This document shows positions 33,354 through 37,779 of a stretch of DNA of 64,000 nucleotides, in pieces. Each line of letters starts with the position of its first letter. The stretch's first letter is position 1. Location: positions 1 through 64,000 of the forward strand of contig QIAJ01000162.1 of assembly GCA_003225495.1 (NCBI GenBank). Reading direction: 5' to 3'. The position numbers were made by a program, and so were the translations under genes. The notes under the pieces are model-generated. The model did no database searches, was not told the DNA's origin, and worked only from the letters and a program-made list of their open reading frames with translations. The stretch comes from Acidobacteriota bacterium. GTDB taxonomy: Bacteria; Acidobacteriota; Terriglobia; Terriglobales; Acidobacteriaceae.

Positions 33354-34064
33354 TCAGATTCTATGATTCAGTTCGGGTTGATAGATCTTCCAGCCAGTCG
33401 CAATAGCGATTTTTTTCAACTCTGGATTCGGATTGATTACAAAAGGGTGCTTCGACATCGCCAGCATTTCGCGATCCCAAAGCGCATTGCCGAAGGCACA
33501 ATCTGGGGGAGAGGGCAGCATTGAGCGCAGAGCTTCCGGTTTTCCAGGGCCGCTCGGGACGCGGATCAAGCGGTCGGCGATCACTCCATTTTCTACCGCC
33601 GCCTCGGCAGCCAGAATTCTGTCTTGCGGAATTCCGAAATAACGCATGCCGGAGCGGATGATCCACTGATTGGAAGATGAAACCGCCCAGACGTCAGTGC
33701 CTTCGGCGCGAAGGCGCTGCACGAGTTCGCGCATCTCCTCGAAAATGCCGGGTGCGATGCTCAGGGCAAAGTATTCGTCGGAGGCTCTTTGGATGTCGTC
33801 TTGGCGAAGACCGCGATACAAGGTAACCATTTCACCGCACATCACGCTTTCGGGCACATTGCCAGCTTTGTAGTCGGCATAGCGGGCGCGGGCCCAGCCC
33901 TCGATCTCTTGCGAGACCATTTGCTTCTTCATCGACCAGGAATAAAATCCTTCTCCGGCATCTCCGGACCAGAGCGTTCCGTCGCAGTCAAATGCGGCAA
34001 TCCGCGGTTTGAGGTTAAGGACAGCTTCGAAGAGTTCGGATTTTGTGAGCGTCAGATTGGTCAT
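33354..34064 (-). CDS. HAD-IB family phosphatase
   Basis: 236 residues. Motif I DCDGTLWSGD, motif II VSSSNQWI and a late FGNALWDREML define a HAD phosphatase of the phosphoserine-phosphatase-like branch with a helical C1 cap. Substrate unknown. It lies upstream, on the same strand, of the small Cys-rich gene. Confidence 0.82.
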   Translation of the reverse strand: MTNLTLTKSELFEAVLNLKPRIAAFDCDGTLWSGDAGEGFYSWSMKKQMVSQEIEGWARARYADYKAGNVPESVMCGEMVTLYRGLRQDDIQRASDEYFALSIAPGIFEEMRELVQRLRAEGTDVWAVSSSNQWIIRSGMRYFGIPQDRILAAEAAVENGVIADRLIRVPSGPGKPEALRSMLPSPPDCAFGNALWDREMLAMSKHPFVINPNPELKKIAIATGWKIYQPELNHRI

Positions 34065-34103
34065 TTCATTTTGTGAATGGGCAAGATGACTCGATTGGAG
34101 ATG

Positions 34104-34730
34104 CTACGACGGCAACGCGGCGTACTGGTCTGGAGTGTCGACATTCATGGTTGTGAAAGGATCATTCACGGTCACATAGGCAATCTTATCCTGGTGGGCA
34201 TGCTCGATTTCGCGTGCGCTGGCGGTCGCGGGAGCTCGCAAAAATGCTTCGATCATCTCGCGTCCCACCAGAATCGGGTGTCCATGCTTGCCCTGATACT
34301 CGGGGACGACTGCCCACATCCCGCGCTTCAAGGCCTGCCCGAATTCTGCTTGCAGAATCACAACCGTTTCAAACCTAACCGGCGGCCGGTCCACCAGCGT
34401 GACCATGGCAGCGTCGCGGCCGCGGTTCAGAACTTCGCGCAGACCCGTTTGCAGGGAACTGAACTGACCTCGTGAAGGATCGGGATTGACTAAAAGCGAC
34501 GCGCCCCGGGCGTAGACGATGGGGGAAAGGTCATTCACGTTTTTGCCGGCGACCACCAGAATGACGTCGACGTAGGGACTGAAGAGGCTGATGGCCGCCG
34601 AGAGGAACGTATTCCCGGTGCTGGTTCCAGCCGATTGCGGTGGCCAGGGAAGCAAGGCTTTGTCACGTCCCATGCGTGAAGATTCACCCGCTGCCAGGAT
34701 CACGCCGCTGAAGCTTATAGAGCTGCCCAT
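34104..34730 (-). CDS. MobA-like nucleotidyltransferase
   Basis: 208 residues. VILAAGESSRMGRDKALLPW is the nucleotide-binding signature of the MobA/MocA/IspD-like family, with VTLVDRPPV and the acidic D in NVDTPDQY. It may add CMP or GMP to molybdopterin cofactor. The closest kind is MocA-like (YgfJ) protein. No other cofactor genes are adjacent. Confidence 0.8.
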   Translation of the reverse strand: MGSSISFSGVILAAGESSRMGRDKALLPWPPQSAGTSTGNTFLSAAISLFSPYVDVILVVAGKNVNDLSPIVYARGASLLVNPDPSRGQFSSLQTGLREVLNRGRDAAMVTLVDRPPVRFETVVILQAEFGQALKRGMWAVVPEYQGKHGHPILVGREMIEAFLRAPATASAREIEHAHQDKIAYVTVNDPFTTMNVDTPDQYAALPS

Positions 34731-34774
34731 GACGCGAAGATAGCAAACTCATTCCAGGCTGCCAAGGATAAGCG

Positions 34775-35761
34775 TCAGTTGAAGGTGGGGAGCTTCACGA
34801 TGTCGTCGTGGGGAACAGGCTCCACGGCGTGTCCGGCTTTGCGCCACGCGCGCAGGCCGCCGACGATGACGAAGGCTTTGAATCCATGCTTTTGAAGTAA
34901 TTGCGCCACCCGGGCGCTCGTGGCTTCGCGCTGTCAAGTACAGTAGAGATAAATCTCACGATCATGCGGGAGATTCTTGATCTCTTCCTCCAGATTGTTG
35001 GGCTCTAATCGAATTGATCCAGCGATGCGTTCGGAGTCTGCGTCGTAGTATCCGTGACTGCGGACATCGGCCACGATCACGGTTGGAGTCTCCTCTAACG
35101 CCAGGCGGCGGGCGAGTTCTTCAACCGGCACGCGCGGAACGCCGTCGAGCATTCGATATTTGCGGTAAATCCAGACGCGATAAACGATGTACGCAGCCAG
35201 TCCGACGCCGAGGACCATTTCCGCAGCGGAGCCCGCTGAGCGGAAGCCCCGGGTGATCGCGCGTAAGGCGTCGCTGAAAATGTAACCGCCAAACATGTAC
35301 GCGCTGACATAGAACGCAGCGCCGATTGTGTCGTATTGCAGGAAATCTCCCAGCCGCATCTTCATGCTGCCAGCCAGCGGTGGAGACATAGTGTTGATCC
35401 CGGGAATGAACTTAGCGAAGAGGAGCGTCTGCTTGCCCCGCCGATAGAAATATTCGGCGGAACGGAGAATGCAGGTCTCGGGATTCGCCGACAGACGGCA
35501 AAGAAAACCCAGCAGAGCCCAACCGCTGGCGCGCCCAGTGAAGTAGAGCAGCAGGTCTCCGGCAATGATTGCCAATACCGACACGCCGAAGACGGAATAG
35601 AGGTGCAGTTTGCCGTAGGCAGCGACTGCGCCCGCCGTCAGAATGGCAATCGCCGCAGGCAGCGGAAGTCCGATTGCCTCGGCGAGGCAGACAGCAGCCA
35701 GCAGGATGTATCCGTGACGCGAAATAAGGGGAAGGAGATCGTCCACAGCTTGCAGGCCCAA
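34775..35761 (-). CDS. DedA-rhodanese fusion, candidate selenoprotein with in-frame TGA at the catalytic position
   Basis: Residues 1-200 are a DedA/VTT membrane domain (E-A-I-G-L-P-L-P near the N-terminus, then AKFIPGINTMSPPLAGSMKM). Residues about 215-328 are a rhodanese domain: VPVEELARRL, VIVADVRSHGYYD, EIYLYCT, then QREATSARVAQLLQKHG and IVGGLRAWRKAGH. Between T and Q there is a TGA at 34936-34934 (codon 276), and the frame then stays open for 52 codons to a TGA at 34775. In rhodanese-like homologues this position, C-T-C-x-x-E-A-T-S, holds the second, catalytic cysteine, so TGA replaces Cys. A hairpin 16 nt downstream fits a bacterial SECIS. Read as selenocysteine the protein has 328 residues; otherwise it ends at 275 and loses its active site. 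Confidence 0.78.
34903..34936 (-). promoter_or_regulatory. SECIS-like element after the in-frame TGA
   Basis: Read on the minus strand: TGA at 34936-34934, 16 nt, stem GCGCC (34917-34913), loop CGGGT (34912-34908), stem GGCGC (34907-34903). Distance TGA to loop is 21 nt, and a G is in the second loop position, followed by GGU, as in bacterial SECIS models. The stem lies within the open frame coding for EATSARVAQ. Confidence 0.55.
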
Positions 35762-35821
35762 ATAACTATATCGCGACCGCTGAAACTTTGCGGATGCCTG
35801 AATGCTGCTGACAAAGAGATA

Positions 35822-35840
35822 GGGCGGCCCGGGGCCGCCC
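35822..35840 (-). terminator. GC-rich hairpin downstream of the small exported protein gene
   Basis: GGGCGGCC (35822-35829) and GGCCGCCC (35833-35840) form a perfect 8-bp stem with a 3-nt loop, 22 nt after the stop at 35863. The T-run on the minus strand is weak (TATCTCTTTG), so it is terminator-like rather than certain. Confidence 0.5.
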
Positions 35841-35862
35841 CTTATCGCCCAAGTGGGCGTGT

Positions 35863-36186
35863 TTACATCGAATCACCCTTCAGCATCTTCACTTCCATAA
35901 CGTGGATCTGATTCTTATCGGCGTACACATGGGCCTTCAGTTCCACGTGATGTCCCTCATGCCCTTTCAGAGCCTCGGGGTTCTGCACTTCCCATGACTT
36001 CTTGTCCTTGTCGCTAACGAAACTGTATTTCTCCCCATCCGCTTTGATCGTGCCCTTCAGGCTCTTCAGGGGCGCGGACGCCTCCGTCTTGTCCGATTTT
36101 CCCATTCCCGCACTCGTGTCCTGAGCGAATGCGCTGATGCTGGACACGACCGCAAGAGCTAACAGACATACAAGAAGCTTTCTCAT
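35863..36186 (-). CDS. Small exported protein, unknown function
   Basis: 107 residues with signal peptide MRKLLVCLLALAVVSSISAFAQ. The mature part has a short beta-rich segment (LKGTIKADGEKYSFVSDKDKKSWEVQNP) and GHEGHHVELKAHVYAD, which resembles small OB-like domains found in acidobacterial exported proteins. Start ATG 36186 has AGGAG in front. Function unknown. Confidence 0.78.
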   Translation of the reverse strand: MRKLLVCLLALAVVSSISAFAQDTSAGMGKSDKTEASAPLKSLKGTIKADGEKYSFVSDKDKKSWEVQNPEALKGHEGHHVELKAHVYADKNQIHVMEVKMLKGDSM

Positions 36187-36316
36187 TTCTTGATCTCCTG
36201 AACTTGATTTGGACTGCTGAAGTAGACTCCCAGTGTAGGTACGGCAGAAGACTGAAAACGGATGTCTTCTCCGTAAGCGTTTGAAGCCACAACTATACAG
36301 GAGGTTGTCTTAGCTT

Positions 36317-36721
36317 ATGGCAGGTCAGATTGGAGAAACGGTCCGTCGTTATGTCAACTTGCCTACTCATAGCGCCACATTGCCTTTCAGCGACGGAGTG
36401 CAGGTTGGAAATACTTTGTACCTCTCCGGGCGAATCGGCATTGATCCAACCACAGGAGCTGTTCCCGCAGATCTTGACCACGAACTCAAACTGCTGTTCG
36501 ACGGATGTAAGGCGGTGCTGAATCAGGCAGGAATGACTTTTGATGATTTGGTGTCGGTGCAAATATTCTCGTCTGATCTGTCTCTGTGGGATCGATTTAA
36601 CACCGAATACTTAAAGCACTTCTCGAAAGATCGCTTGCCGGCGCGAGCCTTTCTCGGTTCCGCATTATTGGCGAGAGGCCGATTTGAGATTATGGGAATT
36701 GCGGTGAAAAACGGCAGCTAG
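36317..36721 (+). CDS. RidA-family enamine/imine deaminase
   Basis: 134 residues, YjgF/RidA fold. Features seen: V-G-N-T-L-Y-L-S-G-R-I-G, the LPARAFLGSALLARGRFEIMGIAV end with the conserved arginine position before A-F and E near the end (R-F-E-I-M-G). Such proteins hydrolyse reactive 2-aminoacrylate-type imines. It is divergent from the small exported gene. Confidence 0.85.
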   Translation: MAGQIGETVRRYVNLPTHSATLPFSDGVQVGNTLYLSGRIGIDPTTGAVPADLDHELKLLFDGCKAVLNQAGMTFDDLVSVQIFSSDLSLWDRFNTEYLKHFSKDRLPARAFLGSALLARGRFEIMGIAVKNGS

Positions 36722-36789
36722 GGACTTAGTTCGTGCGGGGACCCGTCATTCCGTTGAGCCTGTGCAGTGGGCGGCGGCACCTTTTGAGA

Positions 36790-37779
36790 TTACTTCTCTC
36801 GCGCCACGACAAAATCGGGTGCCCAGAGGAGAGCGCGCTTGATCTCCGAATCCGGAAACACACAAATTGCTTTGCGCGCTGACTCCGCATAGCGAGCCGC
36901 TTCGTGCGAAGCATATTCGAGCGAGCTGTAGCGATTCAGGATTGTAAGGATGTCAGCGTGCGTTACGCCGTTGAACGCGCGGTCGATCAGCACGGTTTCG
37001 ATCTGCTTGCGCTCCGACGGAGTGCAGCGTTCGAGAGCATGAATGATCGCCATTGTGGCTTTACCCTCGCGCAAATCGCTGGCGACGGGTTTGCCCAGGA
37101 CGCTCTCAGATGCGGTGAGATCGAGCACGTCATCGACAATTTGGAAGGCGAGCCCAAGGTCACGTCCATATTGCCCGAGGCGTTCTTCCTGTTCAGTGGT
37201 CGCTCCGCCAAGAATTCCTCCGACACGCATGCAGACGGAAAACAGGCAAGCTGTCTTACGATAAATCAGATCGAGGTGTTCCTGGCGGGAGATGAGCTTA
37301 CCCAGTTTCTCCATTTGCAACAACTCGCCTTCGACCATCTGCTGGGTGAGCTCAATGAGCACGTCGAGGATGCGGAAATTGCGTTCCTGGACGGCGATCT
37401 TGAAAGCCTGCATGTACAGCCAATCGCCCGCGAGCACGCACTTGGAATTGCCCCACTGTGTGTTCGCCGCCGGACGCCCGCGGCGGGTCTGGGCCTCGTC
37501 GATGATGTCGTCGTGAACCAGGGTGGCGGTATGGATGATCTCGACCACCGACGCCAGTTTCACTGCACCCGTGCCCTTGTAGTTAAAGAGTCTGGCAGAG
37601 AGCAGGAGCAATGCCGGGCGGATCCGCTTGCCGCCACCCGCGCGCAAGTATTCGCCGATCTCGGTGATGGCGGCGACGTTCGAGACGGTGTCGCGGCCAA
37701 ACTGGTCTTCGATTGCTACAAGGTCGTCCCGCAGCAGATCGAAGATCTCTTTCCCGTTGATGGCGGTGATTGTGCTCAA
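36790..37779 (-). CDS. Long-chain polyprenyl diphosphate synthase
   Basis: 329 residues. First aspartate-rich motif DDIID in LVHDDIIDEAQTRRG, and second DDVLD in QIVDDVLDLT. It elongates FPP with IPP to make a C35-C50 chain, probably the quinone side chain. Small residues before the first motif cannot fix product length by eye. Its ATG overlaps the stop of the yajQ-like gene upstream by 4 nt. Confidence 0.9.
   Translation of the reverse strand: MSTITAINGKEIFDLLRDDLVAIEDQFGRDTVSNVAAITEIGEYLRAGGGKRIRPALLLLSARLFNYKGTGAVKLASVVEIIHTATLVHDDIIDEAQTRRGRPAANTQWGNSKCVLAGDWLYMQAFKIAVQERNFRILDVLIELTQQMVEGELLQMEKLGKLISRQEHLDLIYRKTACLFSVCMRVGGILGGATTEQEERLGQYGRDLGLAFQIVDDVLDLTASESVLGKPVASDLREGKATMAIIHALERCTPSERKQIETVLIDRAFNGVTHADILTILNRYSSLEYASHEAARYAESARKAICVFPDSEIKRALLWAPDFVVAREK

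Follow-up and report, generated by a model that had tools for sequence, protein, structure and literature searches.

A DedA–rhodanese fusion gene of Acidobacteriota with a predicted selenocysteine at the rhodanese active site

Does the TGA that interrupts a DedA–rhodanese fusion gene in an acidobacterial genome mark a broken gene, or a codon for selenocysteine (Sec)? The question is posed by the minus strand of the window, a 64,000-nucleotide stretch of contig QIAJ01000162.1, where a frame of 328 codons runs from 35761 to 34778 and ends at a TGA stop (34777–34775). The sequence and its translation show a single interruption of this frame, an in-frame TGA at codon 276 (34936–34934) in the context IYLYCT-U-QREATSARVAQLLQ, followed by 52 codons to the stop. 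Ordinary annotation would cut the protein at this TGA, ahead of the catalytic residue. In the gene product, Pfam places both VTT_dom (DedA) and Rhodanese above their gathering thresholds (38.9 versus 33.9 bits and 42.0 versus 22.2 bits, respectively), the Rhodanese match spans the TGA, and each of the two domains is found in 42 of 42 homologues. The first-pass annotation had reported the same frame, TGA position, downstream codons, active-site motif and DedA–rhodanese fusion, all of which we recovered. It had also let the gene fill the whole frame 35761–34775, and of this the frame holds while the start probably has to be moved: the MNDLL with which homologues start aligns at codon 6 of the frame, which makes GTG 35746 a more likely start than TTG 35761, for a predicted gene of 323 codons with Sec as residue 271. 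Residue numbers used here (Cys88, Cys97, Cys274, Sec276) are counted from the TTG 35761 frame, and the coordinates of all features are collected in Table 1. In this GC-rich window an in-frame TGA followed by at least 35 open codons is common by chance, so length alone is no evidence for Sec; none of the other TGA readthrough frames within the window follows a recognisable catalytic motif.

Table 1. Features of the predicted selenoprotein gene and their coordinates in the window
Feature	Coordinates	Strand	Details
DedA(VTT)–rhodanese selenoprotein gene (predicted), whole	34775..35746	-	Probable GTG start 35746 (upstream alternative TTG 35761), stop TGA 34777–34775
VTT (DedA, PF09335) membrane domain	35282..35659	-	Residues 35–160 (P0001), Pfam 38.9 bits, E 1.4e-9
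Rhodanese domain (PF00581), read through the TGA	34838..35092	-	Residues 224–308 (P0001), Pfam 42.0 bits
In-frame TGA, predicted selenocysteine codon 276 (P0001)	34934..34936	-	All 50 close homologues that cover the codon have TGA; the wider family has TGA, TGC or TGT
Cys274 codon (TGT) of the C-T-U motif, invariant	34940..34942	-	86/86 rows
Predicted bacterial SECIS upper hairpin, stem GCGCC/GGCGC, loop CGGGT	34903..34917	-	Starts 16 nt after the TGA
Cys88 codon, invariant, in a VTT-domain loop predicted to be cytosolic	35498..35500	-	85/85 rows; also in proteobacterial fusions
Cys97 codon, invariant, in the same predicted VTT loop as Cys88	35471..35473	-	86/86 rows; also in proteobacterial fusions

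Using peptide patterns that left out the TGA position, we fetched relatives encoded at 51 loci of other genomes, all of them Acidobacteriota. The codon is TGA in every one of the 50 close homologues that cover it (46–80% protein identity) and is no other codon in any, and exactly 52 open codons follow it in each homologue unless a contig end intervenes. The same codon being TGA in 50 of 50 independently fetched homologues is not chance, and its conservation, with the 52 downstream codons open, excludes a recent nonsense mutation. A profile search found DedA–rhodanese fusions in about 63 of 347 Acidobacteriota genomes, 30 of them with one in-frame TGA and the rest without. When the codon was read in the fetched loci, relatives of the second kind were found to have cysteine at position 276, encoded by TGC or TGT at exactly the codon of the TGA (44 rows). 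The arrangement, a TGA at the predicted rhodanese active site of a membrane protein, is a recurrent one across the phylum. In the gene tree there are two deep fusion clades, each with Sec and Cys members, and the Sec/Cys label requires four changes on the best tree and no fewer than two on well-supported branches.

The wider collection also holds forms that depart from this arrangement. The rhodanese part occurs alone at two loci, once with a TGA (FCTUPNEGTS) and the same hairpin as described below (L149; G086:C8, 364479-364808) and once in a Cys version (L150; G346:C108), which suggests that soluble relatives exist close to NF041203. Three divergent fusion paralogues (L143 in G249:C5, L145 and L148) gave no CxC/CxU motif, and L143 also contains an internal TAG.

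Downstream of the TGA, the first-pass annotation had pointed to a short GC hairpin, and this lies where it was said to lie (Table 1). Across the family the hairpin keeps a fixed register, with nucleotides 17–21 after the TGA pairing with nucleotides 27–31 around a 5-nt loop, in most cases CGGGT or CGTGT. Of the 82 TGA genes, which comprise 74 distinct 45-nt sequences, 74 form all five pairs, versus 1 of 44 Cys genes, and the isolated hairpin reaches -7.5 kcal/mol or lower in 70 of 82 versus 0 of 44, so the structure is conserved in the TGA relatives and largely lost in the Cys forms. Two of the pairs show changes on both sides (C-G to U-A, G-C or G-U, and G-C to A-U), as in GTGCC/GGCAC (L059, L101) and GCACC/GGTGC (L056). 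None of 500 shuffles reaches the observed covariation score, and every slid register also scores lower. Synonymous sites within the hairpin are nearly frozen, and this is so in the Sec genes only: Ala is encoded by GCC in 80 of 80 Sec genes (39% elsewhere in the genes) and Val by GTG in 73 of 73 (41% elsewhere), while CGC, which these genes otherwise prefer for Arg (56% elsewhere), is used in 0 of 81. Where a Cys gene encodes a similar peptide, its codons differ, and Lys or Thr often replaces the Arg. Among codons +6 to +10 after the TGA, Arg stands at +8 in 81 of 82 Sec genes, a position at which Cys genes often have Lys, Thr or Ala, and the hairpin thus seems to dictate protein sequence besides codons in the Sec genes.

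Published limits for bacterial SECIS elements are a loop of 3–9 nt, a stem of 4–16 bp, a G at loop position 1–2, a distance of 16–37 nt from the UGA and a minimum free energy of -7.5 kcal/mol or lower (PMC13188914). The window hairpin falls within them (5-nt loop CGGGT, 5-bp stem, 21 nt to the loop), with a marginal energy of -7.6 kcal/mol when isolated. In the 45 nt that follow the window TGA it is not the minimum-energy fold (-9.1 kcal/mol versus -11.7 for an alternative), and its pair probability is 0.25 compared with a median of 0.72 over the Sec genes. Because the single-sequence fold of the window picks this competing structure, the SECIS case rests on the cross-species comparison.

The machinery for Sec insertion is encoded in the host genome, where all four of selA, selB, selC and selD were found: selA (541.9 bits, cut-off 267.9), selB (365.9, cut-off 242), selD (357.9, cut-off 125) and a tRNA-Sec (65.9, cut-off 47) with anticodon UCA and discriminator G73. 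The host selD (L069; G000:C160:37369-38322) itself has an in-frame TGA at the active site, AAG-U-ASKLSP; it is the known Sec form of selenophosphate synthetase and a second Sec gene in the genome. Over the 63 fusion-bearing genomes, selA and/or selB exceed their cut-offs in 30 of 30 with a TGA versus 2 of 33 with Cys forms only. The nominal Fisher P of 6e-16 overstates independence, as the genomes are related and the tree holds few (2–4) independent Sec/Cys changes; these 2–4 pairs are too few for sign-test significance, and none contradicts the link to the sel genes. In two fragmented assemblies one of the two genes was not found, selA in G341, which has selB, and selB in G055, which has selA. 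The two Cys-only genomes with Sec machinery (G068 and G043) belong to one genus and have selA and selB, yet their fusions (L137 and L140, respectively) are of the Cys type (YCNCPREASS); here Cys stands in place of Sec although the machinery has been kept.

Several other readings of the TGA have to be weighed against Sec. The codon could be a nonsense mutation of a Cys codon, leaving a pseudogene or a truncated rhodanese; TGC is one base from TGA, and a truncated DedA domain could still enter the membrane. This candidate was rejected on the pattern of conservation, and we assign it almost no probability: the TGA is kept in all of the close homologues with the 52 codons beyond it open and conserved, residues past it (for example, G301, G302 and W306) are invariant, and synteny with a polyprenyl synthetase gene is conserved at 44 loci. 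UGA might instead be read by another tRNA that inserts Cys, Ser or some other residue. Such tRNAs exist, since selC*-type tRNA-Cys with a UCA anticodon and a U73 discriminator, as well as allo-tRNAs, have been reported in bacteria, the latter in Acidobacteria (PMC7609411), and the homologues do have Cys at this position. Among the host tRNAs that the Rfam models for tRNA and tRNA-Sec recovered and ARAGORN checked, in a genome that is 91.6% complete, the tRNA-Sec is the only one with a UCA anticodon and carries G73 rather than U73; on this ground a different suppressor tRNA was rejected. Both tRNA-Cys genes have a GCA anticodon, and the hairpin, selA and selD all fit Sec, which together leave such a tRNA very improbable.

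UGA recoding is generally incomplete, and the gene could have two products, with UGA acting mainly as a stop that yields DedA plus a truncated rhodanese and Sec inserted only in the presence of selenium. The VTT domain would survive early termination intact, which favours this idea; the truncated form ends immediately before the catalytic residue, and would therefore be a dead rhodanese. We regard a dual product as rather unlikely, and it is compatible with Sec decoding. Taken together, the in-frame TGA almost certainly encodes selenocysteine in a gene that is not broken, and a selenoprotein is, with only slightly less assurance, the best overall explanation of the locus on comparative sequence evidence. 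The Sec insertion proposed in the first-pass annotation is in this way borne out by comparative genomics, through the conserved TGA, the Cys homologues, the Sec machinery and the conserved hairpin, and none of the three observations that it named as refuting was made.

The neighbourhood of the gene (33354-37779) is conserved in relatives and consists of a HAD hydrolase, a MobA-like NTP transferase, the Sec fusion gene, a short secreted-like protein, RidA and the polyprenyl synthetase. It is not diagnostic of function.

What the protein might do is suggested by its conserved residues and fold. Cys88, Cys97, Cys274 and position 276 (Sec or Cys) are invariant in 85–86 of 86 fusion rows and are shared with proteobacterial DedA/GlpE fusions. 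Sec276 precedes the loop Ser282 by six residues, which we take to be the spacing of the rhodanese catalytic Cys; the TGA had been assigned to that catalytic position from the start, in agreement with this spacing and with the Cys homologues at the same codon. An extra thiol, Cys274, stands two positions ahead of Sec276. The AlphaFold model (mean pLDDT 79.8, pTM 0.62) shows the expected helices and a rhodanese domain, which matches solved rhodaneses such as 6mxv, 3nhv, 3ilm and GlpE 1gmx by profile and fold (Foldseek prob 1.00). By the positive-inside rule, the positive charge near residues 89–110 and 195–201 suggests a cytosolic location for both the rhodanese domain and the loop with Cys88 and Cys97. 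The domain content agrees with an earlier description of the product as a membrane-anchored selenium rhodanese, in which rhodanese activity is predicted.

The C274-T-U276 pair would form a two-chalcogen centre in which the Sec276 selenolate attacks a sulfane sulfur or a disulfide and Cys274 resolves the intermediate. The Cys88/Cys97 pair in the membrane-domain loop would be a likely partner in exchanging sulfur or electrons with the membrane. We consider rhodanese-type persulfide or redox chemistry at Cys274–Sec276 reasonably probable; exchange between this centre and Cys88/Cys97 is a more tentative suggestion. Instead of a sulfurtransferase, the CxU pair could form a redox centre of the thiol-disulfide oxidoreductase or peroxidase-like kind, a reading against which stand the rhodanese catalytic-Cys spacing of position 276 to the loop Ser and the match of the domain to rhodaneses by profile and fold. 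An invariant Cys two residues before Sec speaks for such a redox centre, as does the fact that most selenoproteins are redox enzymes (PMC9312934), and we hold it to be possible, if somewhat doubtful. More speculative still is the full scheme, a membrane selenoenzyme whose cytosolic Cys-x-Sec rhodanese would exchange sulfane sulfur, selenium or electrons with the invariant Cys pair of the DedA domain, so that four chalcogens form a relay that works at the inner membrane or across it; we think it unlikely as a whole. If true, it would give DedA–rhodanese fusions a function other than lipid-carrier flipping. The unexplained role of the fusion becomes directly testable through the invariant membrane-domain Cys pair. 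The family also adds a membrane protein to the bacterial selenoproteome that is widespread in Acidobacteriota, a phylum abundant in soil, and its natural Sec/Cys pairs, with the hairpin lost in the Cys forms, offer a clean comparative set for judging what advantage Sec brings to a rhodanese.

Comparison with known systems sets the protein apart from several of its relatives. It shares the VTT/DedA domain with the undecaprenyl-phosphate (UndP) flippases UptA, YghB and YqjA, and matches UptA models weakly, below their cut-offs. Two Arg of re-entrant helix 2 are essential in the UndP flippases (YghB Arg130/Arg136; PMC10127716); if equated by their six-residue spacing, they correspond to Lys117 and Asn123 in the window protein. 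Position 117 is Lys in 83 of 86 rows and Arg in 3, and position 123 is Asn, Ser, Ala or Gly and Arg in 0 of 86. With Lys117 and Asn or Ser at 123 in place of the two Arg, a plain UndP flippase is less likely, which favours persulfide or redox chemistry at Cys274–Sec276; a link of the DedA–rhodanese fusion to UndP has been called unclear (PMC10127716).

The table of a 2026 review (PMC13188914) gives several forms of rhodanese selenoprotein, among them NF041203 with CxU and one fused to DsbD, and mentions a DedA or VTT fusion for none of them. The Cys-x-Sec motif is shared by NF041203 (rhodanese_LYCAU, 'Rhodanese-like form 3, CxU'), which is the best NCBIfam match of the window rhodanese domain (82 bits, E 2e-23). 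It is a single-domain model of 126 positions, whereas in the window protein the rhodanese is joined to a DedA membrane domain, and 7 of 7 fusions tested score below its 115-bit cut-off (58–85 bits). TsoB (NF045694; PMC13188914) resembles the window protein in being listed as a rhodanese selenoprotein, of DsbD-fusion-like architecture, but has two Sec (UxxxxU) and a membrane domain, DsbD, that is different from DedA; NF045694 is absent from the NCBIfam hits of the window protein. No paper combining selenoprotein, rhodanese and DedA was found in the open-access literature, and among the papers listed for DedA with selenocysteine (20 of 22) none was relevant by title and abstract. For the acidobacterium Occallatibacter riparius, deep-Sep (PMC12013277) counts three selenoproteins as known, one of which may be the Sec DedA–rhodanese gene. 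As far as the open-access literature shows, subscription papers and supplements aside, the Sec-bearing DedA–rhodanese is a new selenoprotein family. Among the nearest known proteins are the Cys-type fusions, such as PA1209 and the COG0586+PF00581 fusions (PMC12893004, PMC10127716) or those named 'DedA family protein/thiosulfate sulfurtransferase GlpE' (for example, WP_043095768). These have the same domain order, the C-x-C/U motif and the invariant membrane-domain Cys pair; they differ in having Cys for Sec, and those of Acidobacteriota do not conserve the hairpin. Given that both the Cys-type fusions and CxU rhodanese selenoproteins were already known, the window gene is best seen as the predicted Sec-bearing variant of a known fusion.
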